Below are positions 24,137-48,538 of a stretch of DNA of 64,000 nt, one piece after another. The notes beneath the pieces are model-generated. The model saw only the letters and a list, made by a program, of their open reading frames with translations. It had not been told where the DNA came from and searched no databases. Numbering within the stretch: position 1 is the stretch's first letter; each line of letters begins with the position of its first letter. Source of the stretch: Paenibacillus sp. FSL A5-0031. Its GTDB lineage: Bacteria; Bacillota; Bacilli; Paenibacillales; Paenibacillaceae. Location of the stretch: contig NZ_MRTD01000001.1 of NCBI RefSeq assembly GCF_001956295.1, positions 682,001 to 746,000 of the forward strand, in the 5' to 3' direction. Both the position numbers and the translations under genes were made by a program.

Positions 24137-25104
24137 GCCTCAACACATTATTGCAAATCGAACGGTTAAAAATGTATTACCCGATTCGTAGTGGGGTATT
24201 TTCAAATCAAGTCAGCCATATCAAGGCGGTTGATGATGTGAGCCTAACGATGTATGAAGGGGAAACCGTCGGTTTAGTTGGCGAATCGGGATGCGGCAAG
24301 TCGACGATTGGACGTTCAATCATTCGACTCGAGAATCCGCAAGCTGGGCGTATTTTATTTGAAAATCAAAACATAATATATTCCTCTCAGCGACAGTTAA
24401 AGCCGCTGCGGACACGAATGCAAATGATTTTTCAGGACCCTTATGCTTCCTTAAATCCAAGGCTTCGAATATACGATACGCTTGCTGAGCCATTAATTGT
24501 TCACAAGCTGGTGAAGCGCAATGAGGTGCAGCGTGAGGTTGATAACCTGCTTCAATTAGTTGGATTGCCGCGTTCGGTTGCCAATCGATATCCTCATGAA
24601 TTTTCCGGGGGGCAGCGCCAGAGGATCGGAATCGCTAGAGCCATTTCATTCAAACCCAAATTGATCGTATGCGATGAGCCAGTATCAGCGCTTGATGTCT
24701 CCATCCAAGCTCAAATTTTAAATCTTTTGCAGGATTTGCAAAATGAGTTAAAGCTGACGTATTTATTTATCGCCCATGGCATTGGAGCAGTTAAACAGAT
24801 CAGTACAAGAATCGCCGTCATGTACTTGGGAAAAATCGTAGAATTGGCCCCTACAGAGGAGCTATTCCGCAAGCCGAAGCACCCGTATACGCAGCTTCTA
24901 TTAAATGCGTATCCTCCGCCGGACCCGACGCTTCGAACAAAGAAGAGTCTCATCATTCAAGGCGATGTGCCTAGTCCAGCGGAGCCTCCCACTGGTTGTC
25001 GTTTTCATACTCGTTGTCCTTATGTGCAAGAGCTGTGCCGAACAGCGGAACCGGTTATTACGGAAGAGCATCACTCTGTTGCATGCCATTATCCGCTTGC
25101 ATAG
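24133..25104 (+). CDS. Oligopeptide-type ABC transporter ATP-binding protein (OppF/DppF)
   Basis: The 323-residue partner ATPase has Walker [14 protein letters not shown]-loop MIFQDPYASLNPRLRI, signature FSGGQRQRIGIARA, Walker B LIVCDEPVSALDVS and an OppF-type C-terminal segment (GCRFHTRCPYVQELC). In place of the canonical switch His of THD, this protein has FIAHGIGAV; the histidine is kept but the following Asp is Gly. It overlaps the preceding gene by four bases (TTATGAGC), so the two ATPases are translationally coupled and form a heterodimer. Confidence 0.9.
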   Translation: MSLNTLLQIERLKMYYPIRSGVFSNQVSHIKAVDDVSLTMYEGETVGLVGESGCGKSTIGRSIIRLENPQAGRILFENQNIIYSSQRQLKPLRTRMQMIFQDPYASLNPRLRIYDTLAEPLIVHKLVKRNEVQREVDNLLQLVGLPRSVANRYPHEFSGGQRQRIGIARAISFKPKLIVCDEPVSALDVSIQAQILNLLQDLQNELKLTYLFIAHGIGAVKQISTRIAVMYLGKIVELAPTEELFRKPKHPYTQLLLNAYPPPDPTLRTKKSLIIQGDVPSPAEPPTGCRFHTRCPYVQELCRTAEPVITEEHHSVACHYPLA

Positions 25105-25133
25105 CACAAAGGCTAGGAAAGGAGAAGGCATCG

Positions 25134-26084
25134 ATGGGCCATTATATCGTTCGAAGGCTGCTGATTTCCATACCGGTATTTCTTGGAATCACATTGCTTA
25201 ATTTTCTTATCATGAATATGGCTCCCGGGAATCCCGTGGATATGTTAATCAATCCTAATATCCCGAAAGAGCTGCTAGAGATTAAAAAAGAGCTGCTTGG
25301 TCTGAATGACCCATTGTATATACAGTATGTAAAATGGCTGGGCGGTTTTTTTAGAGGAGAACTAGGCTATTCATTTAGCAGCTTCGCCCCTGTATCACAG
25401 CTGATTGGCGCCCGAATCGGACCTACCTTGCTGCTGGCTGCAGCATCGATGCTGGTTGGGATATTGATTGCCGTACCCGTAGGGGTGATCAGTGCTGTCA
25501 AACAGAATTCAAAATTGGATTATTTCATGACAGGGTTATCCTTTCTAGGCACCTCGATTCCTCCCTTTTTCCTAGGCCTTGGATTTATCTATTTGGTTGG
25601 AATTAAGCTGAAGTGGCTTCCAACGGGGGGAATGTCAACGTTAGGAGGCTCTGGCAGCTTTGGAGATATCCTCATGCATATGATTCTTCCTGTCATGGTG
25701 CTTGGTATTACGATTGCAGGTAAAAAGGTTCGGTATGTTCGCGCCAGTATGCTCGATGTACTGCATCAGGATTATCTGCGCACAGCTCGAGCGAAAGGCC
25801 TTAGTGAATTTCTGGTTACAAATAAGCATGCGCTTCGCAATGCCTTAATCCCGATCATAACGATCATCGGTGCAGAAATTCCTTTGGTATTAGGCGGCAG
25901 CATTATTATTGAGCAAGTATTTCAATGGCCGGGTATCGGGCAATTAACGATGGAAGCCATTCTCTCACGCGACTATCCGACTTTAATGGGCATTAATTTG
26001 ATTGCTGCCTGCGTTATACTCTTCACGAATTTGTTCACCGACATCGTTTATTCAATGGTTGATCCACGCATTAAATACAGCTGA
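25134..26084 (+). CDS. Oligopeptide-type ABC transporter permease (OppB/DppB)
   Basis: This 316-residue membrane protein starts MGHYIVRRLLISIPVFLGITLLNF and continues APGNPVDMLINPN, the standard DppB N-terminus with one membrane helix and an external loop. The EAA-loop that contacts the ATPases reads YLRTARAKGLSEFLVTNKHALRNALIPIIT. Six membrane segments are visible. ATG 25134 follows GGAAAGGAGAAGGCATCG and is preferred to the upstream extension, which would overlap the OppF gene. It works with the OppC-type permease encoded next. Confidence 0.92.
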   Translation: MGHYIVRRLLISIPVFLGITLLNFLIMNMAPGNPVDMLINPNIPKELLEIKKELLGLNDPLYIQYVKWLGGFFRGELGYSFSSFAPVSQLIGARIGPTLLLAAASMLVGILIAVPVGVISAVKQNSKLDYFMTGLSFLGTSIPPFFLGLGFIYLVGIKLKWLPTGGMSTLGGSGSFGDILMHMILPVMVLGITIAGKKVRYVRASMLDVLHQDYLRTARAKGLSEFLVTNKHALRNALIPIITIIGAEIPLVLGGSIIIEQVFQWPGIGQLTMEAILSRDYPTLMGINLIAACVILFTNLFTDIVYSMVDPRIKYS

Positions 26085-26100
26085 TTGGAGGGGATTGCAA

Positions 26101-27024
26101 ATGTCCGTTAGTGAAATGCCATGGATGAGAAAAGATGCTTTTTCCTCAGATCAAAGCGATGAAGACGAACTGTCTATGGATGTAATGGAGAGTCAAGCCC
26201 AATTAGTGAGGCGTAAGTTTATCAAGCACAAGCTGGCGATATGGGGACTTGCAACTACCTTGCTGCTGATTAGTATCGCGCTTTTTGCTCCGTGGCTTGC
26301 ACCAAGTCATCCTAATGAAATTACAGATGCGTTCTCAGCCCATCCCTCGCTTACACACTGGTTAGGCACCGATCAAGTAGGGCGGGATGTATTAAGCCGG
26401 TTGATTTTTGGAACTCGGGTATCCTTAATGATTGGTTTTTTTACAGTTGCTTTGTACGTAACCTTCGGAACATTCATTGGGCTAATCGCTGGTTACTATG
26501 GCAAATGGCTGGATATGGCACTTATGCGTTTGACTGATATTTTCTTAAGTTTTCCATACATTATGGTCGTATTGGTCATCGTGAGCGTGCTTGGTGCAAG
26601 TGCATCCACGATCATCCTTGTTCTCGCACTGTTCAAATGGCCAACGATAGCGATGCTTGTCAGGGGAAGCGTATTATCCATGAAACAAATGGATTTTGTC
26701 CGCGCCGGCGTTGCGCTTGGATACAACACCCCGCGAATACTAATAAAGCATATTTTGCCAAATGTAATGGGGCCAATCATTGTGAATGCAACGTTTGGCG
26801 TTGCCAGCACGATTCTTAGTGAAGCTGGACTTAGCTTTCTTGGGATGGGGGTCAAATCCCCTCAGGCGAGCCTTGGCAATATGCTGCACGATGCACAATC
26901 GCTAACGGTTTTAACTGAGCAGCAGTGGTTATGGGTACCTGCCGGCCTCGTTATTCTTATTACAGTGCTTGCGATTAACTTTGTAGGGGACGGTCTTCGT
27001 GATGCGTTTGATGCGAGGGCTTAA
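26101..27024 (+). CDS. Oligopeptide-type ABC transporter permease (OppC/DppC)
   Basis: A 307-residue permease with an N-terminal cytosolic extension of about 50 residues, then LAIWGLATTLLLISIALFAPWLAPS, the conserved HWLGTDQVGRDVLSRLIFGTRVSL block of DppC, and the EAA loop DFVRAGVALGYNTPRILIKHILPNVMGPIIV. The motif GLSFLGMGVKSPQASLGNML near the C-terminus is typical of the family. ATG 26101 follows ATTGGAGGGGATTGCAA. Together with OppB it forms the membrane channel for a peptide- or small-amine-type substrate. Confidence 0.92.
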   Translation: MSVSEMPWMRKDAFSSDQSDEDELSMDVMESQAQLVRRKFIKHKLAIWGLATTLLLISIALFAPWLAPSHPNEITDAFSAHPSLTHWLGTDQVGRDVLSRLIFGTRVSLMIGFFTVALYVTFGTFIGLIAGYYGKWLDMALMRLTDIFLSFPYIMVVLVIVSVLGASASTIILVLALFKWPTIAMLVRGSVLSMKQMDFVRAGVALGYNTPRILIKHILPNVMGPIIVNATFGVASTILSEAGLSFLGMGVKSPQASLGNMLHDAQSLTVLTEQQWLWVPAGLVILITVLAINFVGDGLRDAFDARA

Positions 27025-27088
27025 GTATATGAATCTGCTATTTAATTTTTTAAATAGATAAAGCAATAAAACAAAAGGAGAGAAACGA

Positions 27089-28753
27089 ATGAAAACAAGG
27101 TTTCAAGTACCAGGATTCGTATTATTAACCATCTTAATGATTTTCCTATCGGCATGCAGTGAAACAAAGCAGGAAAAGGTCGAAGCAACAGCAGAACCAG
27201 CGAAGGAAGATGTTTCTGTTAAGGCAACAACCAACGATGCCAAAGCCAAAAAAACCTTATACATTGGTATTGTTAATGCTCCTGTTACATTAAATCAAAT
27301 CAATACGCAAGGAAGCTCGGCGTCGCTTGCCCCTATTAATTTACTTAATGATTCTTTGCTCGATGTAACGGATACCGCACAATTTATACCGAAGCTGGCG
27401 GAATCTATCGAGACGCAGGATAAGCAAACTTACCGTATCAAGCTTAAAGCGAATGCCAAATGGAACGATGGCACCCCTTTTACAACGGCAGATGTGGCTT
27501 TCACCTTAAAGCTTGCCCTTCATGCCAAAGTAGAATCATCCTTCAAGTTGGATTTTATCGAAGGCTTAAATGACATTGGGAAACTGGATGAAGGGAAAAC
27601 AGAGCTATCCGGATTGAAAATTATCGATCCAACGACCTTCGAGATCAAAACAAAAACACCAATCGATCCGCTTGTATTTAATGAACGTTTCGGTGTTAAG
27701 GTGAATTTCTTGCCCGAGCATATTCTGAAAGATGCCAATCCAGAGCAGCTTTCAACGAACGAATATTTCCAAAAACCATTAGTCACCATTGGTCCCTATA
27801 AGTTTGCGAATTATGAGCAGGGCCAATTTGTTGAGGTGACGAAAAATGAAAATTACTACCTCGATGTACCTAAGATTGACACGATATTCATAAAGGTGCT
27901 TCCCGCGGCAAATCTTGTAGCACAGCTGCAGACGGGAGAAATTCAAATGAATTCTTTACCGGTCGGGCTTGTACCGATTACGGATTATGATAAGGTCAAG
28001 GGCTTTGAGAATGTAAATGTAACCTCAGCTCCAGCCTCTGAGCCAGCAGAAATATTCTTCAATACAGAGAAGCTTCCAGATAAAAAAGTTCGTCAAGCGA
28101 TCGCCTATGCGTTGAACCGTCCGCTCATCGTGGAGCAGTTGCTCAAAGGGCAGGCCGAAATTATTGATGGAGGCATCCCAAGCTCGCATCCTTATTTTAA
28201 TAAAAACATTGCCAATTATGATTACAATCCTGAAAAAGCAAAAGAGCTTTTAAAAGAAGCGAATTGGGATCCCAAACGTACCATTACATTTATTATTCCA
28301 GTTGGGAATAAGGTTCGTGAGCAGGCTGCTGATATTCTCGTACAAAACTTAGAATCTGTTGGGATTAAAGTAGACGTTCAGAAATTCGATTTCCCGACGT
28401 TAATCGATAAAGTGGAGAAGGGCGAGCATGACATTACCATATTCACAAGAGATTACTATATCGAACCTAGCCTCTATTTTACAACCTATAAAAGTGATGA
28501 TCCCGAAAGTGTGATTCGATTTAAGAATCCTTTAGTCGATGAGCTTATTAAAAAGGGAGAACAAGAAATTATAGAGGAAAAACGTCACGAGATTTATAAC
28601 CAATTGCAAGAGGTACTGCATGATGAGGTTGCCACTTTAGCTGTTTATTCCGAGAAACGTTTGCAGGTCGTATCAAAAAACGTTCTCGTTGGTAAACCGC
28701 TTAATCTAGGTACGTTCAATAATGTAAACCAGTGGGATATAGAAACGAAATAG
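27089..28753 (+). CDS. Substrate-binding lipoprotein of the oligopeptide ABC transporter (SBP_bac_5)
   Basis: The 554-residue protein has a lipoprotein signal (VLLTILMIFLSACSETKQE; lipobox LSAC) and a family-5 binding fold. Recognisable pieces are KLAESIETQDKQTYRIKLKANAKWNDGTPFTTADVAFTL and VRQAIAYALNRPLIVEQLLKGQA plus DYNPEKAKELLKEANWD. It should deliver an oligopeptide or small organic substrate to the OppBC permeases. The ligand is not predictable. KGGAGAG-type site (AAAAGGAGAGAAACGA) precedes the ATG. Only 106 bp, without a convincing terminator, separate it from the carrier-protein gene, so the transporter may be co-transcribed with the AmCP pathway and import a precursor or re-import its product. 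Confidence 0.9.
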   Translation: MKTRFQVPGFVLLTILMIFLSACSETKQEKVEATAEPAKEDVSVKATTNDAKAKKTLYIGIVNAPVTLNQINTQGSSASLAPINLLNDSLLDVTDTAQFIPKLAESIETQDKQTYRIKLKANAKWNDGTPFTTADVAFTLKLALHAKVESSFKLDFIEGLNDIGKLDEGKTELSGLKIIDPTTFEIKTKTPIDPLVFNERFGVKVNFLPEHILKDANPEQLSTNEYFQKPLVTIGPYKFANYEQGQFVEVTKNENYYLDVPKIDTIFIKVLPAANLVAQLQTGEIQMNSLPVGLVPITDYDKVKGFENVNVTSAPASEPAEIFFNTEKLPDKKVRQAIAYALNRPLIVEQLLKGQAEIIDGGIPSSHPYFNKNIANYDYNPEKAKELLKEANWDPKRTITFIIPVGNKVREQAADILVQNLESVGIKVDVQKFDFPTLIDKVEKGEHDITIFTRDYYIEPSLYFTTYKSDDPESVIRFKNPLVDELIKKGEQEIIEEKRHEIYNQLQEVLHDEVATLAVYSEKRLQVVSKNVLVGKPLNLGTFNNVNQWDIETK

Positions 28754-28859: not shown

Positions 28860-29033
28860 ATGGCAGATTTGAATTGTCTTGTATGCAAGTCGGATATCGA
28901 GGTGGAAGAGAGTGTAACGACGGGTGAAATTTTGGAATGCGGTTCATGCGGTCAAGAACATGAAGTGCAGGTCGAATCCAATCTCGTAAGCATCGCTCTA
29001 GCTCCAGAAATAGAAGAAACTTGGGGAGAGTAG
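28860..29033 (+). CDS. lysW: LysW-type amino-group carrier protein (AmCP)
   Basis: This 57-residue acidic protein begins MADLNCLVCKSDIEVEE and has a zinc ribbon from Cys6-x2-Cys9 and Cys27-x2-Cys30, and it ends ...EETWGE. LysW proteins of Thermus end in EDWGE, and the C-terminal glutamate's gamma-carboxyl is joined to the alpha-amino group of the substrate amino acid, so intermediates stay protein-bound. Here the last residues W55-G56-E57 are fully kept. The ATG at 28860 follows TATAGGAGGTGCAAGGATA. Its neighbours are a LysX-like ligase, LysY, LysZ and a LysK-like deacylase, so the carrier identity is secure. Confidence 0.9.
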   Translation: MADLNCLVCKSDIEVEESVTTGEILECGSCGQEHEVQVESNLVSIALAPEIEETWGE

Positions 29034-29042
29034 GAACCGAAC

Positions 29043-29939
29043 ATGGAGCAGAATCGTGCGATTTTATTATGTGTTACAAAGTTGCGGGAAGAAGAACAAC
29101 GAATAATCGATCATCTTCGAGATTTAGGCGTACAAGTGCAGGTGAACTTGGATTCCATGGAATTACCATTAGGTGAGCCTGATGTCCATTCCTTCGGAAT
29201 TGCTCTCATTCGTTGTCTCTCACAGAAAAACGCGTTGAATCGAGCCCATCTGCTTGAATTAGCCGGTCTTGAAACGTTGAATTCGGTCAAAGCAATTACT
29301 ATTTGTACAAATAAAATACATCAAGCGATTGTGTTTCAAAAACATGGCATTCCCCAGCCCCAATATAAAGTAGCTTTTACACCTGAGAAGCTCTTCCAAG
29401 CTTTGCAGACATTTGGAGATTTATGTGTCATTAAGCCGGCAACCTCATCTTGGGGAAGGGGAATAGCTAGAATCACCGGCAAAGAATGCTTAGATGGCTG
29501 GATAGCTGCAAGGGAATCTGTAGACCCTGGGCATCAATCGTTCCCTGTATTAGTACAAGAATATGTGGAAAAAGGTGATTTTGATATCCGTGTTGTCATC
29601 GTAGGCAGCAAACCGATTGCTGCGTTCCGCCGGGTTTCGGCAGACAACTGGAAAACAAATACGCATTTAGGTGCAGAAATTGATCCTCTAGAAATTAATG
29701 ATGAAATGGCCTCCATTTGCAAACAAATAATCGAGGTTTTGGGCGAAGGCATTTATGGTGCAGACTTGTTTTTTGATTACAAGCAGCAACGGTACGTCGT
29801 ATGTGAAGTGAATCAAAACCCAGAATTCGCAAAGTCCTGGAAAATTCATGGTGTCGATGTGGCCTACCATATTGCACAATATGTAAAAGCTGCGATTGAA
29901 CGAAAAAACAAGGCCAACTTAACTGTTATATCGCGGTAA
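29043..29939 (+). CDS. LysX/ArgX-type ATP-grasp ligase that loads the amino-group carrier
   Basis: This 298-residue ATP-grasp protein of the RimK/LysX group should attach an amino acid to the C-terminal Glu of LysW using ATP. Key blocks are NKIHQAIVFQKHGIPQPQYK (pre-ATP region), CVIKPATSSWGRGIARI (ATP-binding Lys and glycine-rich loop), VLVQEYVEKGDFDIRVVIVG and FRRVSADNWKTNTHLGAEI, which parallels the substrate-specificity loop RR-S-x-W-x-TN of LysX. The metal-binding end is YVVCEVNQNPEF, where LysX of lysine biosynthesis typically has EVNHTMEF. This divergence means the substrate could be glutamate, as in secondary-metabolite AmCP systems, rather than alpha-aminoadipate. It starts 9 bp after the lysW stop. 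Confidence 0.85.
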   Translation: MEQNRAILLCVTKLREEEQRIIDHLRDLGVQVQVNLDSMELPLGEPDVHSFGIALIRCLSQKNALNRAHLLELAGLETLNSVKAITICTNKIHQAIVFQKHGIPQPQYKVAFTPEKLFQALQTFGDLCVIKPATSSWGRGIARITGKECLDGWIAARESVDPGHQSFPVLVQEYVEKGDFDIRVVIVGSKPIAAFRRVSADNWKTNTHLGAEIDPLEINDEMASICKQIIEVLGEGIYGADLFFDYKQQRYVVCEVNQNPEFAKSWKIHGVDVAYHIAQYVKAAIERKNKANLTVISR

Positions 29940-29959
29940 ATAGGGAGGTTAAATGGGAA

Positions 29960-30622
29960 ATGGGAGAAACGTTAACGAAACCAGAAGCTGTCATCCAAAA
30001 AGAAAATTATTTTTCATTGTCATTTGTATTATCGAGAGTACTAAATTCAGGCGTCATTATGAGTATTGAAAAAAATGATCTTGAATTAAAAGGATTGGAG
30101 AAAGGGATAGCCAAGCTGACCAACAAGAAATATGTCTCTTTATTTAATAGTTACACCGGTGCGATTCACGGTGCGCTGTGGGGACAGAACTTAGGCTACC
30201 ATACTTCTGCACGACTGGATCATCCGAGTGAGCAGGAAAAAAAGTTTATTCATTGGTTAGGAATCACACTCATTTCAGATCCACACGTAAAGCAGGCTTA
30301 TGCGACCGTTGAGGTTAATTGGGAAAACCTTCATCAGTTGGATCAGATCATTTTTAAAGCCAGCGACCGCGCTCCCGTACTCGTTTTGGACTTTACGGGA
30401 TTAGGTTTTGGACCGGTTGCTGCCATCGCTGCAAATGATGATAATATTTGGAAAAAAGCAGAGCGCTTGAAGATTTTTGGTGCCTTTGATTTACAAACGA
30501 TGTGGACACAGGAAGATAGTGAACCTGACCTGCAGCCAGCCTTGCAGTTCAACTACAGGCTTAGCCCGCTCGTAGCAGCATGTGTGAAGTTAACACTCTT
30601 AAGGAGGAACCAATCATTATGA
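29960..30622 (+). CDS. Half-length DegT/DnrJ/EryC1-like protein without the PLP lysine
   Basis: The 220-residue product aligns by eye with the large domain of DegT-family aminotransferases. LEKGIAKLTNKKYVSLFNSYTGAIHGALWG matches the region that holds the phosphate of PLP, VLVLDFTGLGFGPVAAIAAN matches the strand with the PLP-ring Asp, and FNYRLSPLVAACVKLTLLRR matches the Y-N-Y/F-R-M-x-x-x-x-A-A signature. Where the internal aldimine Lys should be, the sequence is LKIFGAFDLQTMWTQED, with no Lys at that point. The small C-terminal domain is missing. It is therefore a catalytically silent paralogue that probably dimerises with the full-length enzyme encoded just downstream, with which it overlaps by four bases (ATTATGA). 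Confidence 0.6.
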   Translation: MGETLTKPEAVIQKENYFSLSFVLSRVLNSGVIMSIEKNDLELKGLEKGIAKLTNKKYVSLFNSYTGAIHGALWGQNLGYHTSARLDHPSEQEKKFIHWLGITLISDPHVKQAYATVEVNWENLHQLDQIIFKASDRAPVLVLDFTGLGFGPVAAIAANDDNIWKKAERLKIFGAFDLQTMWTQEDSEPDLQPALQFNYRLSPLVAACVKLTLLRRNQSL

Positions 30623-31941
30623 AGTCGGATTTTATTCGCAAGCCGTTAGCGCTGCCTTCGGATGATTGGGTTCAAGCACCTTTAGCCTTTCTGGGAGGAC
30701 CATCTATTATTCCAGAGGATGTAAGGAAGACGAATTTCCCAATCATTACGAAGGAAGATGTCATTCAAATGCTTATCTCCATCCAGCAGGATGGAGAGCA
30801 AGTTGTCGATGAGTTCAAAGAAACGTACCGCAATTATGTAGGGGCGAATTATGCGATTGCTACAGCAAGCGGTACATCCAGCCTGCACCTCGCATTAGTT
30901 GGGGCAGGTGTACAGCCCGGAGATGAGGTGATCGTTCCTGCATTCACATTCATAGCAACCGCTCAAGCCGTTGTTGCAGCGAAGGCGATCCCTATTTTTG
31001 TGGACATTGACCCTATAACCTATTGCTTAGATCCACTAAAAGCAGAGCAAGCCATAACGAACAAAACAAAGGCAATCATGCCCGTGCATGTACATGGCCT
31101 GCCTGCTGATTTACCTGCATTGAGACGTCTGACTGACAAGTATTCGCTTCGCCTTGTAGAGGATGCCTCCCATGCGCATTCCGCATCAATCCATCAACAA
31201 CTCGCCGGTTCGATTGGAGACAGTGCAGGGCAAAGCTTAATGGCCGATAAAAACTTTCCTGTAGGCGGGGAAGGAGGCATCGCTTTTTTCAAAGAAAAAG
31301 AGGATTATGAGCGCGCACTCGCGTTCCTTGATTCATCAGGCATTGATTACCGCATGTCTTGGATTGCAGCTGCTTTCGGTTTGAGCCAGCTTTCCCGACT
31401 CCCTTATTATGATGCCATTCGTGCACGGAATACAGCTTATCTAACGAAAGAGCTTTCAGAAACAAAACTGTTTAGCGGACCATTCGTACCGGATGGGTAT
31501 AAGCACAGTTTTAATATGTATCGTGTTAAACTCTCACCCGAGCGACTTGGGCTTGAGGACTTGGAGGATTATCTTGTTAAAGATGCCGTTCAGCAGCTCA
31601 TTAATTCTGAAGGCGTATTTGCTAGAGAGTGGCAAAATGTACCGATACCTGGTCATCTGCCATTCAAAAATCGAAAAGGCTTTGGAAATGGTTATCCGTT
31701 TACGTTATCGGACCGTCAAGATTTTGGTTACGATTTGAACCATTTCCCTGAAACATTGAAGATGCTTAGAAACAGCTTAACGATATGCAGAGAATTAAGA
31801 ACGCCTATAGAATATGAGCGAATTCAAGCTTACGCCTTGGCTTTCAAAAAAATTGATGCGAACCCGCATATGATTCGTGAACTGGTAGAGCGAGGCAGCG
31901 ATCTTATAGTGCTGTATGAAAGAGACGCTAGATTAGGATGA
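30619..31941 (+). CDS. DegT/DnrJ/EryC1 family PLP-dependent aminotransferase
   Basis: A 440-residue sugar/amino-acid aminotransferase of the DegT family. NYAIATASGTSSLHLALVGAGVQPGDEVIVPAFTFIATA is the cofactor phosphate and entry region, VEDASHAHSAS holds the ring-contacting Asp, and the catalytic Lys lies in QSLMADKNFPVGGEGGIAFF. SGIDYRMSWIAAAFGLSQL is the canonical R-M-x-x-x-x-A-A motif. In the AmCP pathway of Streptomyces (vazabitide), a DegT enzyme aminates the ketone formed by transketolase, and this is the likely role here, on the LysW-bound intermediate. ATG 30619 follows TAAGGAGGAACCAATCATT. Confidence 0.88.
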   Translation: MKSDFIRKPLALPSDDWVQAPLAFLGGPSIIPEDVRKTNFPIITKEDVIQMLISIQQDGEQVVDEFKETYRNYVGANYAIATASGTSSLHLALVGAGVQPGDEVIVPAFTFIATAQAVVAAKAIPIFVDIDPITYCLDPLKAEQAITNKTKAIMPVHVHGLPADLPALRRLTDKYSLRLVEDASHAHSASIHQQLAGSIGDSAGQSLMADKNFPVGGEGGIAFFKEKEDYERALAFLDSSGIDYRMSWIAAAFGLSQLSRLPYYDAIRARNTAYLTKELSETKLFSGPFVPDGYKHSFNMYRVKLSPERLGLEDLEDYLVKDAVQQLINSEGVFAREWQNVPIPGHLPFKNRKGFGNGYPFTLSDRQDFGYDLNHFPETLKMLRNSLTICRELRTPIEYERIQAYALAFKKIDANPHMIRELVERGSDLIVLYERDARLG

Positions 31942-32990
31942 GTACAGCAGAACAACAAAAGAAACGAGTAGCCATTTTAGGCGGCAGCGGGTTCACTGGC
32001 GCTGAGTTATACAGGCTGCTCAATAAGCATCCTCATTTTGAAGTTCAGTTTGTGTCCTCCGAATCAAAGGCGGGATACCCGGTGGATAAGTTCTATATCG
32101 GTTCTATTCATAAAAAGAAGCTCAGCTCGCTAAAGTTCAACAAAATATCCGATTTAGAAGGTCATTACGATGCGATTTTCTCCTGTTTGCCTACAGGCTC
32201 CTTGCCTAAGATTATCCAGCATATTGCAGAGCATACAGACTATATCTTTAATCTAAGCGGGGATTATCGTATATCCGACCCCGATATATTACATCAACAT
32301 TATCCAGAAACATTAAAACATGCATTTGAAGGCGGTTGGCACTACTATATTCCAGAGTTCAGCAAAATCAATCTCGAAGCAAAAGTAGTCAATCTTCCGG
32401 GCTGCATGGCAGTGGCGACGCTGTATACCCTTTATCCGCTTGTAGCGCATGGCTTAATTGAAGGCCGTGTAATCACTGATGCCAAGACGGGCTCCAGCGG
32501 CGGCGGAAAATCAACAACAGAGCATCATGCGGAGCGCTCCCATAACTTCAGAGCTTATAAAGTTCATGGTCATCGTCATCAGCCCGAAGTCGTGCATGCA
32601 TTATCCTATCATTTGAATCAATTGGTAGATTTGCAGTTTTCGGTCTATAGTCTTGATCTTCCCCGAGGAATTATGGCAACCTCGTATTCCTTGCTAAAGG
32701 AGCACGTAACAGATGTAGATGTAAAAAAAGCATTCTACGGCACGTATTCATCCAAACCTTTTCTTCATTATTTTAACTCGGGAAATGGTTCACCTATGAT
32801 CAAAACAGTAGCAGGAACAAATTATGCAGAAATCGGTGCTTATGTGGATGGACGATATTGTGTTTCCATCGCAACCATCGATAATTTAATTAAAGGAGCT
32901 GCGGGGCAAGCCATACAGGCAGCAAACAACTATTTTGGATACTCTGAGGAGGCGGGATTGACATTTGAATTTGAGGGAGCGTGGCCCTGA
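31938..32990 (+). CDS. lysY: LysY/ArgC-type acyl-phosphate reductase (semialdehyde dehydrogenase)
   Basis: This 350-residue NADPH-dependent reductase converts the carrier-bound gamma-acyl phosphate into the semialdehyde. It has the Rossmann motif AILGGSGFTGAELYRLL, the catalytic cysteine in VVNLPGCMAVATLYTLYPLV, and the ArgC signature GSSGGGKSTTEHHAERSHNFRAYKVHGHRHQPEV. LysY (acting on the LysW-bound aminoadipyl phosphate) and ArgC (acting on the N-acetyl-glutamyl phosphate) cannot be told apart safely from sequence alone, but the neighbours argue for LysY-type use with LysW. It overlaps the aminotransferase stop by four bases (ATGA). Confidence 0.88.
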   Translation: MSTAEQQKKRVAILGGSGFTGAELYRLLNKHPHFEVQFVSSESKAGYPVDKFYIGSIHKKKLSSLKFNKISDLEGHYDAIFSCLPTGSLPKIIQHIAEHTDYIFNLSGDYRISDPDILHQHYPETLKHAFEGGWHYYIPEFSKINLEAKVVNLPGCMAVATLYTLYPLVAHGLIEGRVITDAKTGSSGGGKSTTEHHAERSHNFRAYKVHGHRHQPEVVHALSYHLNQLVDLQFSVYSLDLPRGIMATSYSLLKEHVTDVDVKKAFYGTYSSKPFLHYFNSGNGSPMIKTVAGTNYAEIGAYVDGRYCVSIATIDNLIKGAAGQAIQAANNYFGYSEEAGLTFEFEGAWP

Positions 32991-34837
32991 TGAGCAGCGG
33001 CAGCTTATATGTAATCAAGCTCGGCAGCAGTACGATTGTAAACCATCCTCACATTTTTGAAGAAATTAGCCTTATCGTTAAGCGAGGAAATCAAGTGCTG
33101 CTTGTGGCAGGCGGTGCCGAAGCCATTAAGCAAAAATATGAATCCATTCCTCGTACGATGCCTTTTCTTACATTGCCGTCTGGGGATGAGGTACGGTACT
33201 GTTCACCCGAAGAGATGCCGATTATCCGTGCAGCCTATCATGAGATTATTTTGCCCACTATACATACACAGCTGAAGGACTACGGTCTTTCTGTCTACTC
33301 ACAGCTTGGTGGAGATCAAGGTCTTGTCTATGGTGAGAAAGCGAAACCCCTTAAAGTGATTAAGGATCAAAAAACGATCATTGTCCGTGATTCGTTGTTC
33401 GGTCATTTCGTGGGCAGTCATGTGGCATTTCTGAAATTTGCTTTACAGGCCTTTGATGTTGTATGTGTTTCTCCTCCAATATTAGATCCAGAACTGGATG
33501 TGTACATAAACATCGATGCAGATGTGCTCGCTGCTCACTTAGCAGTGGACTTAGAAGCGCATCACCTGCGCTTTGTTACTGGAACTGCAGGCTTACTGGA
33601 GGATGTTGAAGATAAACATTCAACGATAGAAAGTGTCTATACGAATGATGAATTAAGCTTTGTAAAAGGGCGCATGAAGCAAAAAGTGCGCGCAGCCCAA
33701 TTAGCAATCCAGCAGGGCATCTGTGATGTGAATATAACCGGTCCTCATACCTTGGAAGCACCCGGCAAAACGTGGTTTTGGAACATGGATCGGGAGCTCG
33801 GCGCATTCGATTTATTGAATAAAGTGGCGCGCATTCCTTCGGTCTCTCAAGATGAGCATGTGCTTGCACACTACTTATTAGAGACGATTAAGCAGCCTTC
33901 GGTTTCAGCGGAAATAGACCACGCAGGAAACATCGTTTTCCGCAAAGGGAATGGTCCCAATACACTGCTCTTATTAGGGCATATAGATACGGTTCCGCAT
34001 GTTTGGCCTGTTCGATCCGACTCCAAAGGCATTACGGGCAGGGGAATCGTGGATGCTAAAGGCTGCTTTGTAAATTTCATTCATATGCTGCAAGAAGTTG
34101 AGGTGCCGGAGCAGGGATCTTTACTTGTAATTGGTGCAGTCGAAGAAGAAATATCATCATCAAAAGGAGCTCATTTCATTCGAGATCACTACAAGGCGGA
34201 TGCGGTTATTATTGGGGAGCCGAGCGGAGTAGAGAGCTTAACCCTCGGTTATTACGGTCTCTTTAAGCTGGAAATTACCATTCATCGCGCGCAGGAGCAT
34301 ACCGCTGCCAAAGATAGCCAGAGTGTTATCGACGAATTGTACAGTGTTGTATCGGACATTCGTGTTCTCGTACGTGATATCGATCCACATTCCTTATCCT
34401 CATTAATTGATATCGAGCATCACAATGAACGAGGCTTTTTGACGGTAAAAGGGACGTTAAACTTTAGAATATCACCAGCGGCAGGCAACGATTATCAGAA
34501 AAAAATTGATTTGTCATTTGGTGAAAATGTGACTGTTGACATCTTGCGTGCAACACCAGGATTTTCGAACTCTCGCACAGGCTCCTTAGTCAAAGCTTTT
34601 GTTCGCAGTTTCGCTAAGCAGGAGAAATCCATTCACTATATCAAAAAACGTGGAACGAGCGACATGAATACGCTGGCCACAACTTGGGATTCCGTCCCTA
34701 TGGTAGCTTATGGTCCCGGTGATTCCAGCTTGGATCATACGAATGATGAATATTTACATTATGGTGAGGTAGAGGAGACCAGAACGATTTTAAAAGAAGC
34801 TGTAAACGAATGGTTTCGGCTGAGATTGGAGGAATAA
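32990..34837 (+). CDS. Fusion of LysZ-type amino-acid kinase and LysK-type M20 deacylase
   Basis: A 615-residue two-domain protein. Residues 1-265 are an amino-acid kinase: YVIKLGSSTIV, LVAGGAEAIKQKY, AYHEIILPTIHTQL and YINIDADVLAAHLAVDLEAHHLRFVTGTAGLL, which is the LysZ/ArgB pattern that phosphorylates the gamma-carboxylate of the carrier-bound amino acid. Residues 275-615 are an M20 metallopeptidase: LLLGHIDTVPH, GRGIVDAKG, GAVEEEISSSKG, IIGEPS and GTSDMNTLATTWDSVP, which is LysK-like and would cleave the isopeptide to release the finished amino acid. So the second step and the last step of the pathway are joined in one polypeptide. ATG 32990 overlaps the LysY stop. Confidence 0.85.
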   Translation: MSSGSLYVIKLGSSTIVNHPHIFEEISLIVKRGNQVLLVAGGAEAIKQKYESIPRTMPFLTLPSGDEVRYCSPEEMPIIRAAYHEIILPTIHTQLKDYGLSVYSQLGGDQGLVYGEKAKPLKVIKDQKTIIVRDSLFGHFVGSHVAFLKFALQAFDVVCVSPPILDPELDVYINIDADVLAAHLAVDLEAHHLRFVTGTAGLLEDVEDKHSTIESVYTNDELSFVKGRMKQKVRAAQLAIQQGICDVNITGPHTLEAPGKTWFWNMDRELGAFDLLNKVARIPSVSQDEHVLAHYLLETIKQPSVSAEIDHAGNIVFRKGNGPNTLLLLGHIDTVPHVWPVRSDSKGITGRGIVDAKGCFVNFIHMLQEVEVPEQGSLLVIGAVEEEISSSKGAHFIRDHYKADAVIIGEPSGVESLTLGYYGLFKLEITIHRAQEHTAAKDSQSVIDELYSVVSDIRVLVRDIDPHSLSSLIDIEHHNERGFLTVKGTLNFRISPAAGNDYQKKIDLSFGENVTVDILRATPGFSNSRTGSLVKAFVRSFAKQEKSIHYIKKRGTSDMNTLATTWDSVPMVAYGPGDSSLDHTNDEYLHYGEVEETRTILKEAVNEWFRLRLEE

Positions 34838-35638
34838 ATGGAGCTGGCAATCGATATTCAAAGGGAAGAAATTTCTATGCTGGTTAATAAGGCGAAAGAA
34901 GCGAGGAAACTGATCATTGACATGGCTGCATCACCTACAGGATGCCATATCGGCGGAAGTCTTTCTGCGATTGACTTATTGATTGGTGCGTATTCGAAAT
35001 ATGTGGAAGATCCAAATACGCTCATCATTCTTAGCAAAGGGCATGCTGCAGCAGCATTATATGCCGCGCTCCATGTATACGGGATGATTAAGGATAACCC
35101 AGCGGATAGCTATGGGAAAGCAGGCTCTTTGTTCACAGGTCACCCTAATCATAAACTGTCAGGCATCCCCTTCGCTACAGGCAGTTTGGGACATGGCATT
35201 CCGTACGCAGCAGGCTGGGCACTGGCACAAAAGATGAAACAAACGAATGGACTAGGGATTGTGATCGGTGGAGATGGGGAGCTGCAGGAAGGATTATGCT
35301 GGGAAACCGCACAGATTGTCCAAGCCCAGTCGATCACTAATTTTGTATATATCGTCGATTGCAACGGAGGCCAAAACGATGGTTATGTGCATGACATATC
35401 ACCGCTTCGCAATCTCCGGCAAAGATTTGAAGCGTTTGGCTTTGCTGTCAAGGAAATCAACGGCCATCATTTCGAAGAAATCCTTGCCGCAATTGAACCA
35501 GATCCAGATAGACCAGTAGCCGTCCTAGCCAATACGATAAAAGGAAAAGGTGTTGCTGCGATTGAAGGAAACCCAGAAGCGCATTATGTTAAAATCCCAG
35601 AGAAGCTCGCCCATAAATGGAAGGTGAGTTTATTATGA
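34838..35638 (+). CDS. Transketolase N-terminal (thiamine diphosphate) subunit
   Basis: This 266-residue protein is the N-terminal half of a split transketolase. SPTGCHIGGSLSAIDLLIGAY, FTGHPNHKLSGIPFATGSLGHGIPYAAGWALAQKMK and the diphosphate motif GGDGELQEGLCWETAQIVQAQSITNFVYIVDCNGGQNDG (G-D-G-x(~27)-N) are clear. It pairs with the C-terminal subunit encoded next. In AmCP-linked pathways the split transketolase transfers a two-carbon hydroxyacetyl unit to the LysW-bound semialdehyde; general sugar transketolases are usually single chain, so the split form in this cluster supports that role. Its ATG directly follows the TAA of the fusion gene. Confidence 0.9.
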   Translation: MELAIDIQREEISMLVNKAKEARKLIIDMAASPTGCHIGGSLSAIDLLIGAYSKYVEDPNTLIILSKGHAAAALYAALHVYGMIKDNPADSYGKAGSLFTGHPNHKLSGIPFATGSLGHGIPYAAGWALAQKMKQTNGLGIVIGGDGELQEGLCWETAQIVQAQSITNFVYIVDCNGGQNDGYVHDISPLRNLRQRFEAFGFAVKEINGHHFEEILAAIEPDPDRPVAVLANTIKGKGVAAIEGNPEAHYVKIPEKLAHKWKVSLL

Positions 35639-36573
35639 CCAAGAAGTCAGGTAGAGATGCCTATAAAGATGAGCTGACTATGCTTGCTTCCAGCAACGAG
35701 CAAATTGTATGTATTGAAGCAGATCTAGGAGGCAAAAATCATCCTTTTGGACAGCAGCATCCCCAGCGTTTTTTTAATCTTGGCATTGCAGAATTAGCTG
35801 GAATTGATATGGCAGCCGGTCTTGCTGAAGCCGGCTATGTGCCATTCTTCTCAACCTTTGCTTCCTTTGCAGCATTGCGAGCAGCCGAAAGCATTAAGCT
35901 GACGATGGGGTATATGGGGAAAAACGTTAAGGTTGTAGCTGCTTATGGAGGGGTATCTGGCGGCTGGTTTGGAACGACACATCATGCCTTGGAGGACATC
36001 GCTGTCCTCCAAGCGTTTCAAAACATACGGATCGCTTGCCCTCATGGTGAGCAGGAAACACGAAGAGTGATACGTGAAGCAGCAGCATCAGAGGAGCCGT
36101 ATTATATTCGACTTTCTAGAAATGATGCCTTTGACAGCCTGGATCGAGCAGAGGACGAGAGCTGCAGAAACTTAATTGTAGAAGGTGGAGCACGTACTGA
36201 TCGATCCAAACTATGCTTAATTTCCGTGGGTGAACAAGCAACAGAACTTTGCAAGCAGATCATTCAAGAGGACGACACTCTCGTACATGCGCATTTATGT
36301 TACGTCGACATTCAAAGCTTGAAACCCTATATTCAACACTTAAGCGGTTTAGCTGACCAATTTCTGGTCGTTGAGGAGCATCGAGCAACCGGCAGTACGG
36401 CGTCCTATCTAGCCTTATTATTGCCTAAGCATCAAGTTCACTCACATCATTGCGGTGAGAAATGGCCGATCTACGGCGGTACGCATGCTGAGGTTCTAGA
36501 CTATTTAGGATTTGGGTTTGAACCACTGCAACAACAAATCCAGAATATTCTAGGAGGTAAGGATGGTTTTTAG
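35635..36573 (+). CDS. Transketolase C-terminal (pyrimidine-binding) subunit
   Basis: The 312-residue C-terminal half has the conserved Glu region IVCIEADLGG, FFNLGIAELAGIDMAAGLAEAGYVPFFSTFASFAA (pyrimidine-binding, with the catalytic Glu in GIAE), GGVSGGWFGTTHHALEDIAVLQAFQNIRIACPHGEQE and a C-terminal domain with VVEEHRATGSTASYLALL. It forms the active heterotetramer with the upstream half and brings the second part of the active site. ATG overlaps the preceding stop (TTATGACC). Co-translation supports stoichiometric assembly. Confidence 0.9.
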   Translation: MTKKSGRDAYKDELTMLASSNEQIVCIEADLGGKNHPFGQQHPQRFFNLGIAELAGIDMAAGLAEAGYVPFFSTFASFAALRAAESIKLTMGYMGKNVKVVAAYGGVSGGWFGTTHHALEDIAVLQAFQNIRIACPHGEQETRRVIREAAASEEPYYIRLSRNDAFDSLDRAEDESCRNLIVEGGARTDRSKLCLISVGEQATELCKQIIQEDDTLVHAHLCYVDIQSLKPYIQHLSGLADQFLVVEEHRATGSTASYLALLLPKHQVHSHHCGEKWPIYGGTHAEVLDYLGFGFEPLQQQIQNILGGKDGF

Positions 36574-37777
36574 TGTACTAAAACAAAGAAACTTCCGCCA
36601 TTATTCCTTCGCTGATATTATTTCCGGGTTCGGCGTAGGTATGAGTACGATTGGTGCGAACTGGTATCTCATGGATCAGACAAATTCGATTGCCGCTATT
36701 GGGTTCATGCTTTCCTTAAATGTCATTGCAGGTTTTCTCATCTCTGCATTCGTAGGCACCTTAATCGATAAATGGAATCGAAAAACGATTATCTTATGGG
36801 CCAATGGCATTCGGGCGATCGCCTTGTTAATCATAACAGGTGCTTTTGTATGGACGGGATTCCGAATTGAATATCTTTATGCCTTTGCCATTATTAACGG
36901 GATGGGCTGGACCGTATATATGACGGCTTCTCGAAGCCTGGTTCAAGAAATCCTATCGGAGAAGGACCTCATTAATGGAAACTCCTTAATTGAAATCAGC
37001 TTGCAAGTAGGGATGTTTATGGCTGGTGCACTTTCAGGAGTGTTGTACAAATTCGTTGGCTTTGAGATCATTCTTCTTCTAAATGCGATCGCCTTTATCG
37101 TGAGCAGCTTCTTCCTTAGTCGAATTCAATATACACCTATCCCTTTTGAAAATGATAAAGAGTCCTTCTTTGCAACGTTTAAGAATGGCCTAACGTATCT
37201 GGCTGAACGTCCATTTATTTTCTTGCTTGGTATTGTATCGATTATTCCACTCGTTTCTACGATGATATACAACGTCGTTCTACCTGGTTATGTAAGCAAC
37301 ACGGTGCAAGGTGATTCCGTTGTATTCGGTTTATCAGATATGTTTTATGGCATTGGGGGATTATTGTCTGGATTTATTGCAGCACCCTTGGCTAAGAAAA
37401 TATCACAACATGGAACGATACTATTATTTTTTATGATATCCGTGCTGAGCCTGCTCGCTGTAGCGTTTAACCATTTGATTCTGCTTTTGTACCTTGGCAG
37501 CGTGTTGATCGGATTAACGAACTCTTCGTTACGTATTTTAATGACAACGACGCTGATGGAATCGGTATCCAAATCCTACATGGGTCGAGCGACTTCGGTC
37601 TGGATGGCGATTTCCTTGCTCTTGCAGATCTTGTCCGCCACAGGGCTTGGCCTTGTCATTGATCGCTTTTCTCCAGGCGCGGGTTTTATCTGTATGAGCG
37701 GCATAATGTTCATCGGATTTGTTGTGTACTTTGTGATGCATAGTAAAGCGACACAAAAAAGTACACTGGAAGCTTGA
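36563..37777 (+). CDS. MFS transporter, putative exporter of the AmCP product
   Basis: This 404-residue protein has twelve membrane segments and the start VLKQRNFRHYSFADIISGFGVGMSTIGANWYLM common to the enterobactin exporter/macrolide-efflux branch of the major facilitator family. FVGTLIDKWNRKTIILWANGIRA is the loop 2-3 motif (G-x-x-x-D-x-x-x-R-K). It begins 11 bases before the transketolase stop and follows AGGAGGTAAGG, so it is part of the operon. Efflux of the finished metabolite or self-protection is the natural role in a biosynthetic cluster. Confidence 0.88.
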   Translation: MVFSVLKQRNFRHYSFADIISGFGVGMSTIGANWYLMDQTNSIAAIGFMLSLNVIAGFLISAFVGTLIDKWNRKTIILWANGIRAIALLIITGAFVWTGFRIEYLYAFAIINGMGWTVYMTASRSLVQEILSEKDLINGNSLIEISLQVGMFMAGALSGVLYKFVGFEIILLLNAIAFIVSSFFLSRIQYTPIPFENDKESFFATFKNGLTYLAERPFIFLLGIVSIIPLVSTMIYNVVLPGYVSNTVQGDSVVFGLSDMFYGIGGLLSGFIAAPLAKKISQHGTILLFFMISVLSLLAVAFNHLILLLYLGSVLIGLTNSSLRILMTTTLMESVSKSYMGRATSVWMAISLLLQILSATGLGLVIDRFSPGAGFICMSGIMFIGFVVYFVMHSKATQKSTLEA

Positions 37778-37828
37778 ATTTTGCATTGCGAACCACTTAT
37801 TTCATAACCATTAAAGGAGGATAAAGAG

Positions 37829-39091
37829 ATGACAGCAATTAAAACGTTAGCTTTTGTTGAACCAAGTTTCTACGGCGTTAGTTTTGCGAGAGTCGCTTTT
37901 GAACAAGGACATAAAGTCATTTCCATTGTTTCTTCTACGGAAAATCCGCAAAAGTATGGATATGAAGGGATCTACCATGATTTGATTGTCGCAGATATTC
38001 GAGATGAAGAGTCACTCTATCAAGCGATTGTTAGCTCCCCCTATGCGAATCAACTGGATGCGTTAATTCCTGCTACGGATTACGCCTCTCACGTAACTGC
38101 GAAGGTAGCTGAGCGGATTGGACTTAGAGGAGTACCATACGAAGCAGCTTTAAAGTCGCGAAACAAAGATTTGGCTAGAGAAGCTTATGCTGAACATCAA
38201 GTTCCGAGTGCAAAATTCAAAAAAGTGAGAACTTACGAAGATGCATTAGCAGCTGCGGAAGAGATCGGATTTCCTATCGTATTAAAACCGACGAATTGCG
38301 CAAGCAGTCAAAATGTTTATTTCATAACTGATGAAAATGAACTGAAGCATGCTATTGATACGATCTTAGCGTTTAAAGTAACTTATATGGACTTTAAAGT
38401 CCGCGATGAGTATTTAATTGAAGAGTACTTGGATGGTCCAGAATTTAGTGTCGAATTATTCGTTAAAGAGGGTGAACCGATTTTCTCGGCCGTTACTGAA
38501 AAATTGACCTCACCGCTTCCTTATTTTGTTGAAATTCTTCATACATTACCTACTTCAGTGCATGTAGAGCATGAGGATCACATCATTCGTACGGCTGTTG
38601 ATGCTTTGAGAGCTATTGGGATAGTGAATGGACCAAGTCACGTAGAAGTGAAGCTTACAAATACGGGTCCACGAATTATCGAGGTGAACGGCAGGCCAGG
38701 AGGCGACAACATTTCATCGGATTTATTAGTGCAAGCGTTCGGTGTTGATATATTTGAAGCGACCGTTAACTATTATTTAGACAAACCGATCAATATTCAG
38801 AAACGGTTTAACCGCGCAGCTTCAATTGCTTATGTGACCGCCGATCGAGAGGGTATTTTTGATGGAATTGAAGGCTTTGCCGATTTAGAACAACATATAA
38901 ATGTTATCCGAGCACAGCTAACGGCAGTTGAAGGAGATTTGGTCTCAGAAGCAAAAAGCTCGGATGATCGATTGGGATACTTCATTACAGTTGGCAACAC
39001 CCCTCAAGAAGCGAAAGAACTAGCCCTTGCCCTGAAAGAAACGTTAACGGTCGTGTATCAGCAGCAAACGACAGAGAGTGCAGCGGGGTAG
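37829..39091 (+). CDS. ATP-grasp ligase (L-amino-acid/dipeptide ligase-like)
   Basis: A 420-residue ATP-grasp enzyme distinct from the LysX-like one. The N-terminal domain (about 1-110) is Rossmann-like, KSRNKDLAREAYAEHQVPSAKFKKV leads into the ATP-grasp fold, EIGFPIVLKPTNCASSQNVYFI carries the ATP Lys, and the metal-binding end is RIIEVNGRPGGDNISSDLL. This is the BacD/carbamoyl-phosphate-synthase-like group that joins amino acids through an acyl phosphate. In this cluster it could ligate the non-canonical amino acid to a second amino acid to form a dipeptide. This role is inferred. It is separated from the MFS gene by 51 bp and preceded by AAAGGAGGATAAAGAG. Confidence 0.85.
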   Translation: MTAIKTLAFVEPSFYGVSFARVAFEQGHKVISIVSSTENPQKYGYEGIYHDLIVADIRDEESLYQAIVSSPYANQLDALIPATDYASHVTAKVAERIGLRGVPYEAALKSRNKDLAREAYAEHQVPSAKFKKVRTYEDALAAAEEIGFPIVLKPTNCASSQNVYFITDENELKHAIDTILAFKVTYMDFKVRDEYLIEEYLDGPEFSVELFVKEGEPIFSAVTEKLTSPLPYFVEILHTLPTSVHVEHEDHIIRTAVDALRAIGIVNGPSHVEVKLTNTGPRIIEVNGRPGGDNISSDLLVQAFGVDIFEATVNYYLDKPINIQKRFNRAASIAYVTADREGIFDGIEGFADLEQHINVIRAQLTAVEGDLVSEAKSSDDRLGYFITVGNTPQEAKELALALKETLTVVYQQQTTESAAG

Positions 39092-39206: not shown

Positions 39207-39521
39207 TTAAGAGACAAGCTTCAACCCTACGGCTGAACCTAATACCATTGCTATAAAAACAACCCTTTTCCAGTCTTTTGATTCTCCATATAAAAGCATT
39301 CCCAATATAGCTCCGCCTGACGCTCCAATCCCCGTCCAAATGGCGTACGTTGTTCCCATAGGCAGTGTTTTCATGGAATAAGCAAGAAATAGGAAGCTTG
39401 CTAAAAATCCGATCGTTAATAATACAACGGATTGCCAATTGCGATCCTTATGCAATTTATTTATCATCGCAACACCAAACATTTCAAACAATCCTGCAAA
39501 TATAAGAGAAATCCAAGCCAT
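39207..39521 (-). CDS. ykkD: SMR family guanidinium exporter subunit (YkkD-like)
   Basis: A 104-residue four-helix small multidrug resistance protein: [21 protein letters not shown] with the conserved membrane Glu14-type residue, KTLPMGTTYAIWTGIGASGGAILGMLLYGE as the SMR signature. The overlapping gene at 39521 encodes a second, different SMR protein, and the pair lies behind a guanidine-I riboswitch, so this is the YkkCD heterodimeric guanidinium/H+ antiporter. Its ATG overlaps the last base of the upstream gene on the minus strand, and AAAGGAGCTGTATCCTA is the ribosome binding site. Confidence 0.87.
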   Translation of the reverse strand: MAWISLIFAGLFEMFGVAMINKLHKDRNWQSVVLLTIGFLASFLFLAYSMKTLPMGTTYAIWTGIGASGGAILGMLLYGESKDWKRVVFIAMVLGSAVGLKLVS

Positions 39522-39865: not shown

Positions 39866-39901
39866 AATACACCTCCAATTTTATTGTTGCCAAAAAACAT
39901 A

Positions 39902-48501: not shown

Positions 48502-48538
48502 ATGAGTTTAATACACAACCAAATTGGAGGAAACGATT

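Follow-up and report, generated by a model that had tools for sequence, protein, structure and literature searches.

A LysW carrier-protein gene cluster in Paenibacillus sp. FSL A5-0031, predicted to make and export a dipeptide, and a displaced reductase gene that likely serves self-protection

A 64,000-nucleotide stretch of the genome of Paenibacillus sp. FSL A5-0031 (contig NZ_MRTD01000001.1, positions 682,001 to 746,000 of the forward strand), hereafter called the window, contains a run of ten genes at 28860-39091 that begins with the gene for a LysW-type amino-group carrier protein (AmCP). We propose, with a probability of roughly 0.68, that these genes build a dipeptide of (2S,6R)-diamino-(5R,7)-dihydroxyheptanoic acid (DADH) on LysW and export it, and that a flavin mononucleotide (FMN) reductase-like gene at 49386-49922 is a displaced eleventh gene of the cluster with a likely role in self-protection. 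DADH (C7H16N2O4, calculated [M+H]+ 193.118) is the building block of vazabitide; it resembles diaminopimelate, a likeness to which no weight is given here. The cluster is of a known chemical kind, that of the AmCP-DADH pathway, but as a variant that includes a ligase, an exporter and a likely protection gene of its own. Carrier-protein amino-acid chemistry is, to our knowledge, known mainly from Streptomyces secondary metabolism.

The ten genes are arranged head to tail, all on the (+) strand, according to the list of open reading frames (ORFs) and the mapping of related loci. Five of the nine adjacent pairs overlap, three of them by ATGA, and the other four are spaced by 0-51 bases. The start of the full-length DegT gene is placed at 30619, replacing the mechanical ORF start at 30580, and that of the gene for the C-terminal half of transketolase at 35635; each of these genes overlaps the preceding one by ATGA. 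The initial annotation of this DNA had named the ten genes, and all of them are found in place, with family assignments backed by model searches (Table 1); the eleventh gene was overlooked in it. The parts of an AmCP-DADH pathway are found together: a LysW-type carrier with a C-terminal glutamate and an adjoining LysX-type ligase; a kinase, an acyl-phosphate reductase and a hydrolase of the LysZ, LysY and LysK types with their catalytic motifs; and a transketolase and a pyridoxal phosphate (PLP) aminotransferase within the cluster. LysW gives a single match in the whole genome, and the LysZ-LysK fusion also scores over the cut-off of the LysK-type subfamily TIGR01902.

The initial annotation had stressed the finding of the whole set in a Paenibacillus-like genome. 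The set is not peculiar to this genome, as the half-length DegT gene is present in 30 of the 394 genomes of the family, 14 of the 51 genomes of the genus and 69 named loci, and homologous sets are found in three phyla (Bacillota, Actinomycetota and Pseudomonadota). Among the 101 fetched loci, in which some genomes are represented twice, 96 have the first eight genes, from LysW to the C-terminal half of transketolase, on a single strand and in unchanged order. Contig ends truncate four of the remaining loci, and the last one, L131 of Enterobacter sp. EA-1, is broken into many frames, probably by poor sequence. Because the eight-gene order is kept in so many related loci, the ten-gene arrangement is far from chance, and the system is real and widespread. 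The catalytic motifs, read with L131 set aside, are likewise conserved. LysW ends in WGE in 94/94 loci with an aligned LysW. LysZ-LysK is a single ORF in 96/97 loci, and D[AS]K, EE and EPS are present in all 96 full fusions, HxDT in 92 and the last-His pattern in only 28 of them. The LysY Cys pattern is found in 82/97 loci (three of the misses read SLPGC), the GDGE pattern of the transketolase N-terminal subunit in 97/97, and the NLGIAE pattern of the C-terminal subunit in 89/97 (two of the eight misses read NFGIAE).

The pathway had been described at the outset as one of the vazabitide kind and not one of lysine synthesis, and this assignment is supported. The LysW pathways for lysine and arginine of Thermus and Sulfolobus have the logic of LysW, LysX, LysZ, LysY and LysK in common with the window, but the window differs from them in the two-carbon extension, in the type and role of the aminotransferase and in the LysX clade. 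An aminoadipate-type lysine pathway or a carrier-type arginine pathway would fit the fact that lysine-pathway models are the best named ones for LysX and for both halves of the fusion (kinase and hydrolase); however, LysX (5.6e-61 to TIGR02144) and the kinase score under the cut-offs of these models. In a LysX tree of 40 rows, 28 cluster rows are split from 11 lysine-type rows and ArgX with a support of 100/99 and a branch of 1.83. Only the split from the lysine LysX is used, because the ArgX branch is very long (3.15), and this split places the cluster LysX outside the lysine LysX clade. Neither homocitrate synthase nor homoaconitase is found over cut-off in the genome: the HMGL-like matches are two LeuA, one CimA and one aldolase-like protein, and the aconitase-family matches are LeuC and AcnA. 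A separate second argC and a lysA are present elsewhere in the genome, both over cut-off, and the transketolase, ligase and exporter would have no role in lysine or arginine synthesis. The LysX tree, the absence of aminoadipate-route enzymes over cut-off and the separate argC and lysA speak against such a pathway, which we reject, leaving it hardly any probability.

The half-length DegT-like protein pointed out by the initial annotation is present, but it has already been solved by others as a subunit of a heterooligomer. It scores 16.6 bits against the Pfam DegT cut-off of 19.8 bits, a weak support until it is used as a profile. It has 311 homologues at E 1e-3 among 600 candidates in a large protein set. 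One half DegT of this set, P0094, which is labelled Staphylococcus aureus, represents 129 member sequences. The full DegT and the half DegT of the window match both chains of the heterooligomeric aminotransferase of Serratia sp. ATCC 39006 (PDB 8y96, 8y97 and 8y98; matches to 8y96 and 8y98, both released on 2024-12-18), and, as in 8y96, a full chain stands beside a half chain of about 218 residues, both homologous. The possibility that the half DegT is a pseudogene or debris is ruled out by its conserved homologues and by the correspondence of the DegT pair to both chains of an enzyme of solved structure. In the locus of Prodigiosinella confusarubida, which we take to be the same lineage as Serratia sp. 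ATCC 39006, the ten genes are ordered as in the window and are preceded by the reductase gene. No paper on 8y96 is found among the matches listed in the literature searches. Other DegTs have an N-x-R motif, the Asn of which is replaced by Asp in 95/97 of the full DegTs, and in the half DegTs N-x-R is preserved in 96/98, a complementarity of motifs between the two chains; the remainder are fragments that are unreadable at the motif, and loci fetched twice count double. In DegT dimers, the Asn and Arg of N-x-R reach the active site of the partner, and serine palmitoyltransferase offers an analogy for the pair; neither is given weight here. The half DegT is predicted to be the non-catalytic partner of the full DegT in one complex. 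If this prediction is right, the conserved pair explains the recurrence of a half-length, lysine-less DegT in genomes.

From the gene content, the following course of reactions is predicted. LysX would attach glutamate to the C-terminus of LysW, and the carrier-bound glutamate would be phosphorylated by the LysZ domain and converted to its semialdehyde by LysY. A ketol unit of two carbons would next be added by the two-subunit transketolase, and the resulting ketone would be aminated by the full DegT together with its non-catalytic half DegT, after which the LysK domain would release DADH from the carrier. The ATP-grasp ligase would then couple DADH to a second amino acid and the MFS protein would export the dipeptide, while the FMN-reductase-like protein would act as a self-protection enzyme.

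The comparisons with known systems that follow draw on excerpts of the cited papers. In vazabitide A biosynthesis, DADH is made on the AmCP Vzb22, a LysW-like carrier (PMC9303977), and s56-p1, from a Streptomyces AmCP cluster, is a dipeptide assumed to be derived from DADH (PMC13266690). The AmCP pathway of vazabitide A and s56-p1 has in common with the one proposed here a LysW-like carrier, glutamate as the likely start (PMC9570651) and, for s56-p1, a dipeptide assumed to be DADH-derived, but the window has a LAL-type (L-amino acid ligase) enzyme, an MFS exporter and an FMN-reductase-like gene, and no visible nonribosomal peptide synthetase (NRPS). No NRPS is seen by eye in the ORF lists of the window, in which the longest ORF, of 1295 residues, is not NRPS-like, and the Pfam scan did not span the whole window. 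LysZ and LysK are fused in the window. In azinomycin biosynthesis, glutamate is the likely start, the two-gene transketolase AziC5/AziC6 extends a protected glutamate semialdehyde, and the aminotransferase AziC1 or AziC7 then yields acetylated DADH; acetyl protection is described in this review, with a carrier protein offered as an alternative (PMC9570651). Azinomycin therefore resembles the window in the two-gene transketolase and the aminotransferase, and is unlike it in acetyl protection and in being an NRPS product. The split transketolase, which had been singled out at the outset, is the ordinary form for this pathway, judging from AziC5/AziC6. LysW-like carriers are also encoded in Family 3 encapsulin clusters, and the chloromyxamides, from another such cluster, contain 6-chloromethyl-5-methoxypipecolic acid (PMC8346489); a link of this pipecolic acid to the same seven-carbon chemistry is possible. 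In the excerpt of a paper on Bacillaceae, vazabitide A is named solely as a cluster with 4% similarity to a linear azol(in)e-containing peptide (LAP) region (PMC12272613). No report of a DADH cluster in Bacillota is found among the matches listed in the literature, which is no proof of novelty, because the main AmCP papers, the primary ones among them, lie outside the coverage of the searches; the same limit applies to the initial suggestion of an undescribed metabolite.

The initial annotation had also suggested that the cluster has an extra ligase that might make a dipeptide and an exporter of its own. Both genes are present and are linked to the cassette. The ligase has ATP-grasp_4 together with LAL_C2, as is characteristic of the LAL family, and its best PDB matches are the L-amino acid ligase 3vot and BacD. 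It thus has the LAL type in common with the bacilysin-type dipeptide ligases (BacD, 3vmm; BL00235, 3vot), whereas here the non-protein amino acid would come from a carrier protein. At E 1e-100, the ligase is present in 14 of the 51 genomes of the genus, which are exactly the 14 with a half DegT, and none of the 51 has the ligase without the half DegT. Because the two genes occupy the same genomes, the ligase belongs to the carrier-protein pathway. With thresholds of 150 bits for the ligase and 60 bits for the MFS protein, homologues of both are found in 34/34 Bacillota loci (distinct loci), 2/2 plasmid loci and 3/3 Enterobacterales loci, and in none of the 38 actinobacterial loci or those of Chitinimonas and Chromobacterium, so that two types of cluster can be told apart. 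A different ATP-grasp family is found in the Chitinimonas and Chromobacterium loci as well as in 30 of the 36 actinobacterial ones; L110, its sole Pfam-scored member, also has LAL_C2. Some of the six actinobacterial loci without this other ATP-grasp have a permease and a short-chain dehydrogenase/reductase (SDR), like the plasmid locus L146. Because the exporter gene adjoins that of a LAL-type ligase, a dipeptide would be the simplest product.

It is also conceivable, but unlikely, that DADH, or a different amino acid with a ketol extension, is exported in free form or altered elsewhere, so that the ligase and the reductase would be tailoring enzymes and the reductase would be biosynthetic. 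The reductase gene lies inside or directly beside the gene run in several lineages, and the actinobacterial loci that consist of the cassette, a permease and an SDR, with no ligase found, are consistent with such a pathway. It is less easily reconciled with the presence of the ligase in every Bacillota locus and, within the genus, in precisely those genomes that have a half DegT, or with the fact that the reductase outlived the pathway in two genomes (G191 and G364), which is unexpected for a purely biosynthetic enzyme.

The reductase gene of the window lies about 10 kb beyond the run, with a pair of small multidrug-resistance-type (SMR) genes, a Lamassu system and other genes in between, and a second genome of the same species has the same displaced arrangement. 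In most mapped Paenibacillus loci it follows the ligase gene; in Prodigiosinella and Kosakonia it precedes LysW, and in the Staphylococcus epidermidis plasmid, Litchfieldia and the Pseudalkalibacillus plasmid it adjoins the MFS gene. A reductase homologue is found within the fetched stretch in 27/34 Bacillota, 2/2 plasmid and 3/3 Enterobacterales loci, and in 0/2 Chitinimonas and Chromobacterium and 0/38 actinobacterial loci. In the family, 26 of the 30 half-DegT genomes have a reductase homologue at E 1e-30 or better, and G326, G358, G371 and G372 have the half DegT with no such homologue at E 1e-30. Four genomes, G005, G191, G362 and G364, have a close reductase (at least 65% identity) and no half DegT. 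G191 shares its neighbouring genes with Paenibacillus glacialis and P. antarcticus, and its sequence matches that of these two species as far as the LysW ribosome-binding region; past the LysW leader come a few unmatched bases, the last codons of the ligase and then the intact reductase gene. In G364, a stretch from upstream of oppD is followed by ligase residues 377-416 (75% identity, with an internal stop) and an intact reductase gene. The cluster thus seems to have been lost twice independently, at different breakpoints, and each loss spared a leader region and the reductase. In G362 (L148, 1731-10518), genes for a binding protein and two permeases, the oppDFBCA set and the reductase gene follow one another with no biosynthetic block, and G005 has a binding protein and the reductase. 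The reductase is likely the self-protection gene of the maker, because two former producers kept it and lost the rest, and immunity genes persist after the loss of synthesis.

Several points weigh against the proposal that the cluster makes an exported DADH dipeptide and that the reductase protects its maker. No product, intermediate or activity has been observed: the gene content and order, the motifs, the linkage, the lack of aminoadipate-route enzymes over cut-off and the deletion scars are shown, whereas the reactions, substrates, product, export and protection are all inferred. The named models for LysX, LysZ and LysK do not separate glutamate from aminoadipate. Vazabitide and s56-p1 are termed nonribosomal peptide (NRP) products in the excerpt of PMC9303977, whereas no NRPS is seen here, and a half DegT in the characterised vazabitide cluster could not be shown. 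For the reductase, 7/34 Bacillota loci have no homologue in the fetched stretch. Four of these (L042, L045, L046 and L083) have a gene for a 183-residue protein after the ligase gene, and the one scored, that of L046 (from G358), is a Flavodoxin_2 protein, another flavodoxin-fold protein; L050 is from the species of the window itself, and in L085 and L090 none is seen. There is no ligase scar in G362 or G005. The pN/pS values, 0.12-0.21 in seven pairs with an orphan reductase and 0.11-0.25 in five producer pairs, include the time before the loss of the cluster, and the retention of the reductase could reflect an ordinary household use. Furthermore, protection is proposed here without a chemistry, because no group that a flavin reductase might attack is obvious in a DADH dipeptide.

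The main structural rival is a metallophore. The genes for an Opp4-like oligopeptide importer end 106 bases upstream of LysW, and because this importer joins an exporter and a reductase, the locus resembles a metallophore locus: a DADH dipeptide would be exported by the MFS protein, re-imported with metal by Opp and stripped of the metal by the reductase. We consider this quite improbable. The gene oppB is present in the fetched stretch of 20/34 Bacillota loci, the importer scores to nickel and staphylopine-type models, all below cut-off, and G362, with importer and reductase without synthesis, is cheater-like. In Kosakonia oryzendophytica (L098, 1161-7033, (-) strand), a TonB-receptor-like gene and an iron-type ABC set, both named by eye, adjoin the cluster's divergent LysR gene, and a Fur-like site is close by. 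Among the weak, scattered matches of the relatives, Fur-like ones with 2-3 mismatches recur 0.97-1.08 kb before LysW in L065, L066, L069, L072 and L074, but these sit inside the oppA reading frame; in L042, L045, L046 and L083, matches are found 1.5 kb before LysW, not placed relative to genes. In the window itself, consensus scans for Fur-, Zur-, MntR- and PerR-like sites with up to 3 mismatches give none within 8.9 kb upstream. Moreover, G364 lost the importer along with the synthesis genes and kept the reductase, and oppA, oppB and oppC homologues are found in 0/2 plasmid and 0/3 Enterobacterales loci. The importer is often linked to the cluster but not essential.

The system is probably mobile. 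A bolder form of the dipeptide and self-protection proposal, that the eleven genes are the Bacillota version of a mobile antibiotic cassette making a DADH dipeptide, with the flavin reductase as immunity kept as an orphan when synthesis is lost, is tentative and somewhat unlikely; if it is true, an antibiotic and a new sort of reductive self-resistance remain to be isolated. If the dipeptide proposal is right, carrier-protein amino-acid chemistry is a widespread and probably horizontally transferred route to small peptides in Bacillota and enterobacteria, encoded by a compact gene set that may be expressible in a laboratory Bacillus. Thanks to the deletion scars, the gene that likely confers protection can then be named ahead of the compound itself, and a direct assay would be at hand with which to search for that compound.

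Table 1. Genes of the predicted DADH cluster and associated features, in positions of the window
Feature	Position	Strand	Remark
Opp4-like oligopeptide ABC importer (oppD, F, B, C, A)	23114..28753	+	Opp4C over cut-off; other best models below theirs
LysW-type amino-group carrier protein	28860..29033	+	57 aa, C-terminal EIEETWGE; Zn_ribbon_LysW over cut-off
LysX/RimK-type ATP-grasp ligase, predicted glutamate loading on LysW	29043..29939	+	RimK family over cut-off
Half-length DegT, predicted partner of next gene	29960..30622	+	PLP lysine region absent
DegT-family PLP aminotransferase, predicted catalytic subunit (SLMADKNFPVGGEGG)	30619..31941	+	440 aa; 8y96 chain A match, E 1.9e-178
LysY/ArgC-type acyl-phosphate reductase, NLPGC	31938..32990	+	argC model TIGR01850 279 bits, over cut-off
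LysZ-LysK fusion, predicted carrier-bound glutamate kinase and M20 release hydrolase	32981..34837	+	AA_kinase, Peptidase_M20 over cut-off
Transketolase N-terminal subunit	34838..35638	+	Transketolase_N over cut-off; thiamine diphosphate motif GDGE...NGGQNDG
Transketolase C-terminal subunit	35635..36573	+	Transket_pyr over cut-off; NLGIAE
MFS transporter, predicted product exporter	36563..37777	+	MFS_1 over cut-off
ATP-grasp L-amino acid ligase, predicted dipeptide former	37829..39091	+	ATP-grasp_4 and LAL_C2 over cut-off
Family-3 solute-binding lipoprotein, directly before reductase	48524..49348	+	SBP_bac_3 over cut-off
Displaced eleventh gene of the cluster: NADPH-dependent FMN-reductase-like protein with a predicted role in self-protection	49386..49922	+	FMN_red over cut-off

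Several features accompany the cluster in the window and elsewhere. The family-3 binding protein lies directly before the reductase gene in G005, as in the window, and ahead of the opp genes in G362, and a homologue is present in 2/34 Bacillota loci (L078 and L079). The Staphylococcus epidermidis plasmid locus L144 (NZ_CP043848.1, 30611-42088) carries the entire set, with a LysR gene, an oxidoreductase, the MFS gene and another regulator ahead of it. Flavin-monooxygenase-like and acetyltransferase-like genes, named by eye, are found in 11/34 Bacillota loci (for example L068, 934-2801), a pairing as in sulfur-scavenging operons. The SMR pair of the window (39207-40032, (-) strand) is over cut-off in Pfam and is preceded by a Guanidine-I riboswitch at 39935-40032 (85.3 bits), the sole family found by Rfam at gathering scores in 20000-52000, with no other riboswitch or T-box. 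The pair is likely a guanidinium exporter operon that faces the cluster end, and among loci with listed neighbours it is found only in the two genomes of this species. Between the ligase and reductase genes, three further genes (40199-45253, (+) strand) match LmuA, LmuC and LmuB of the Lamassu defence system.

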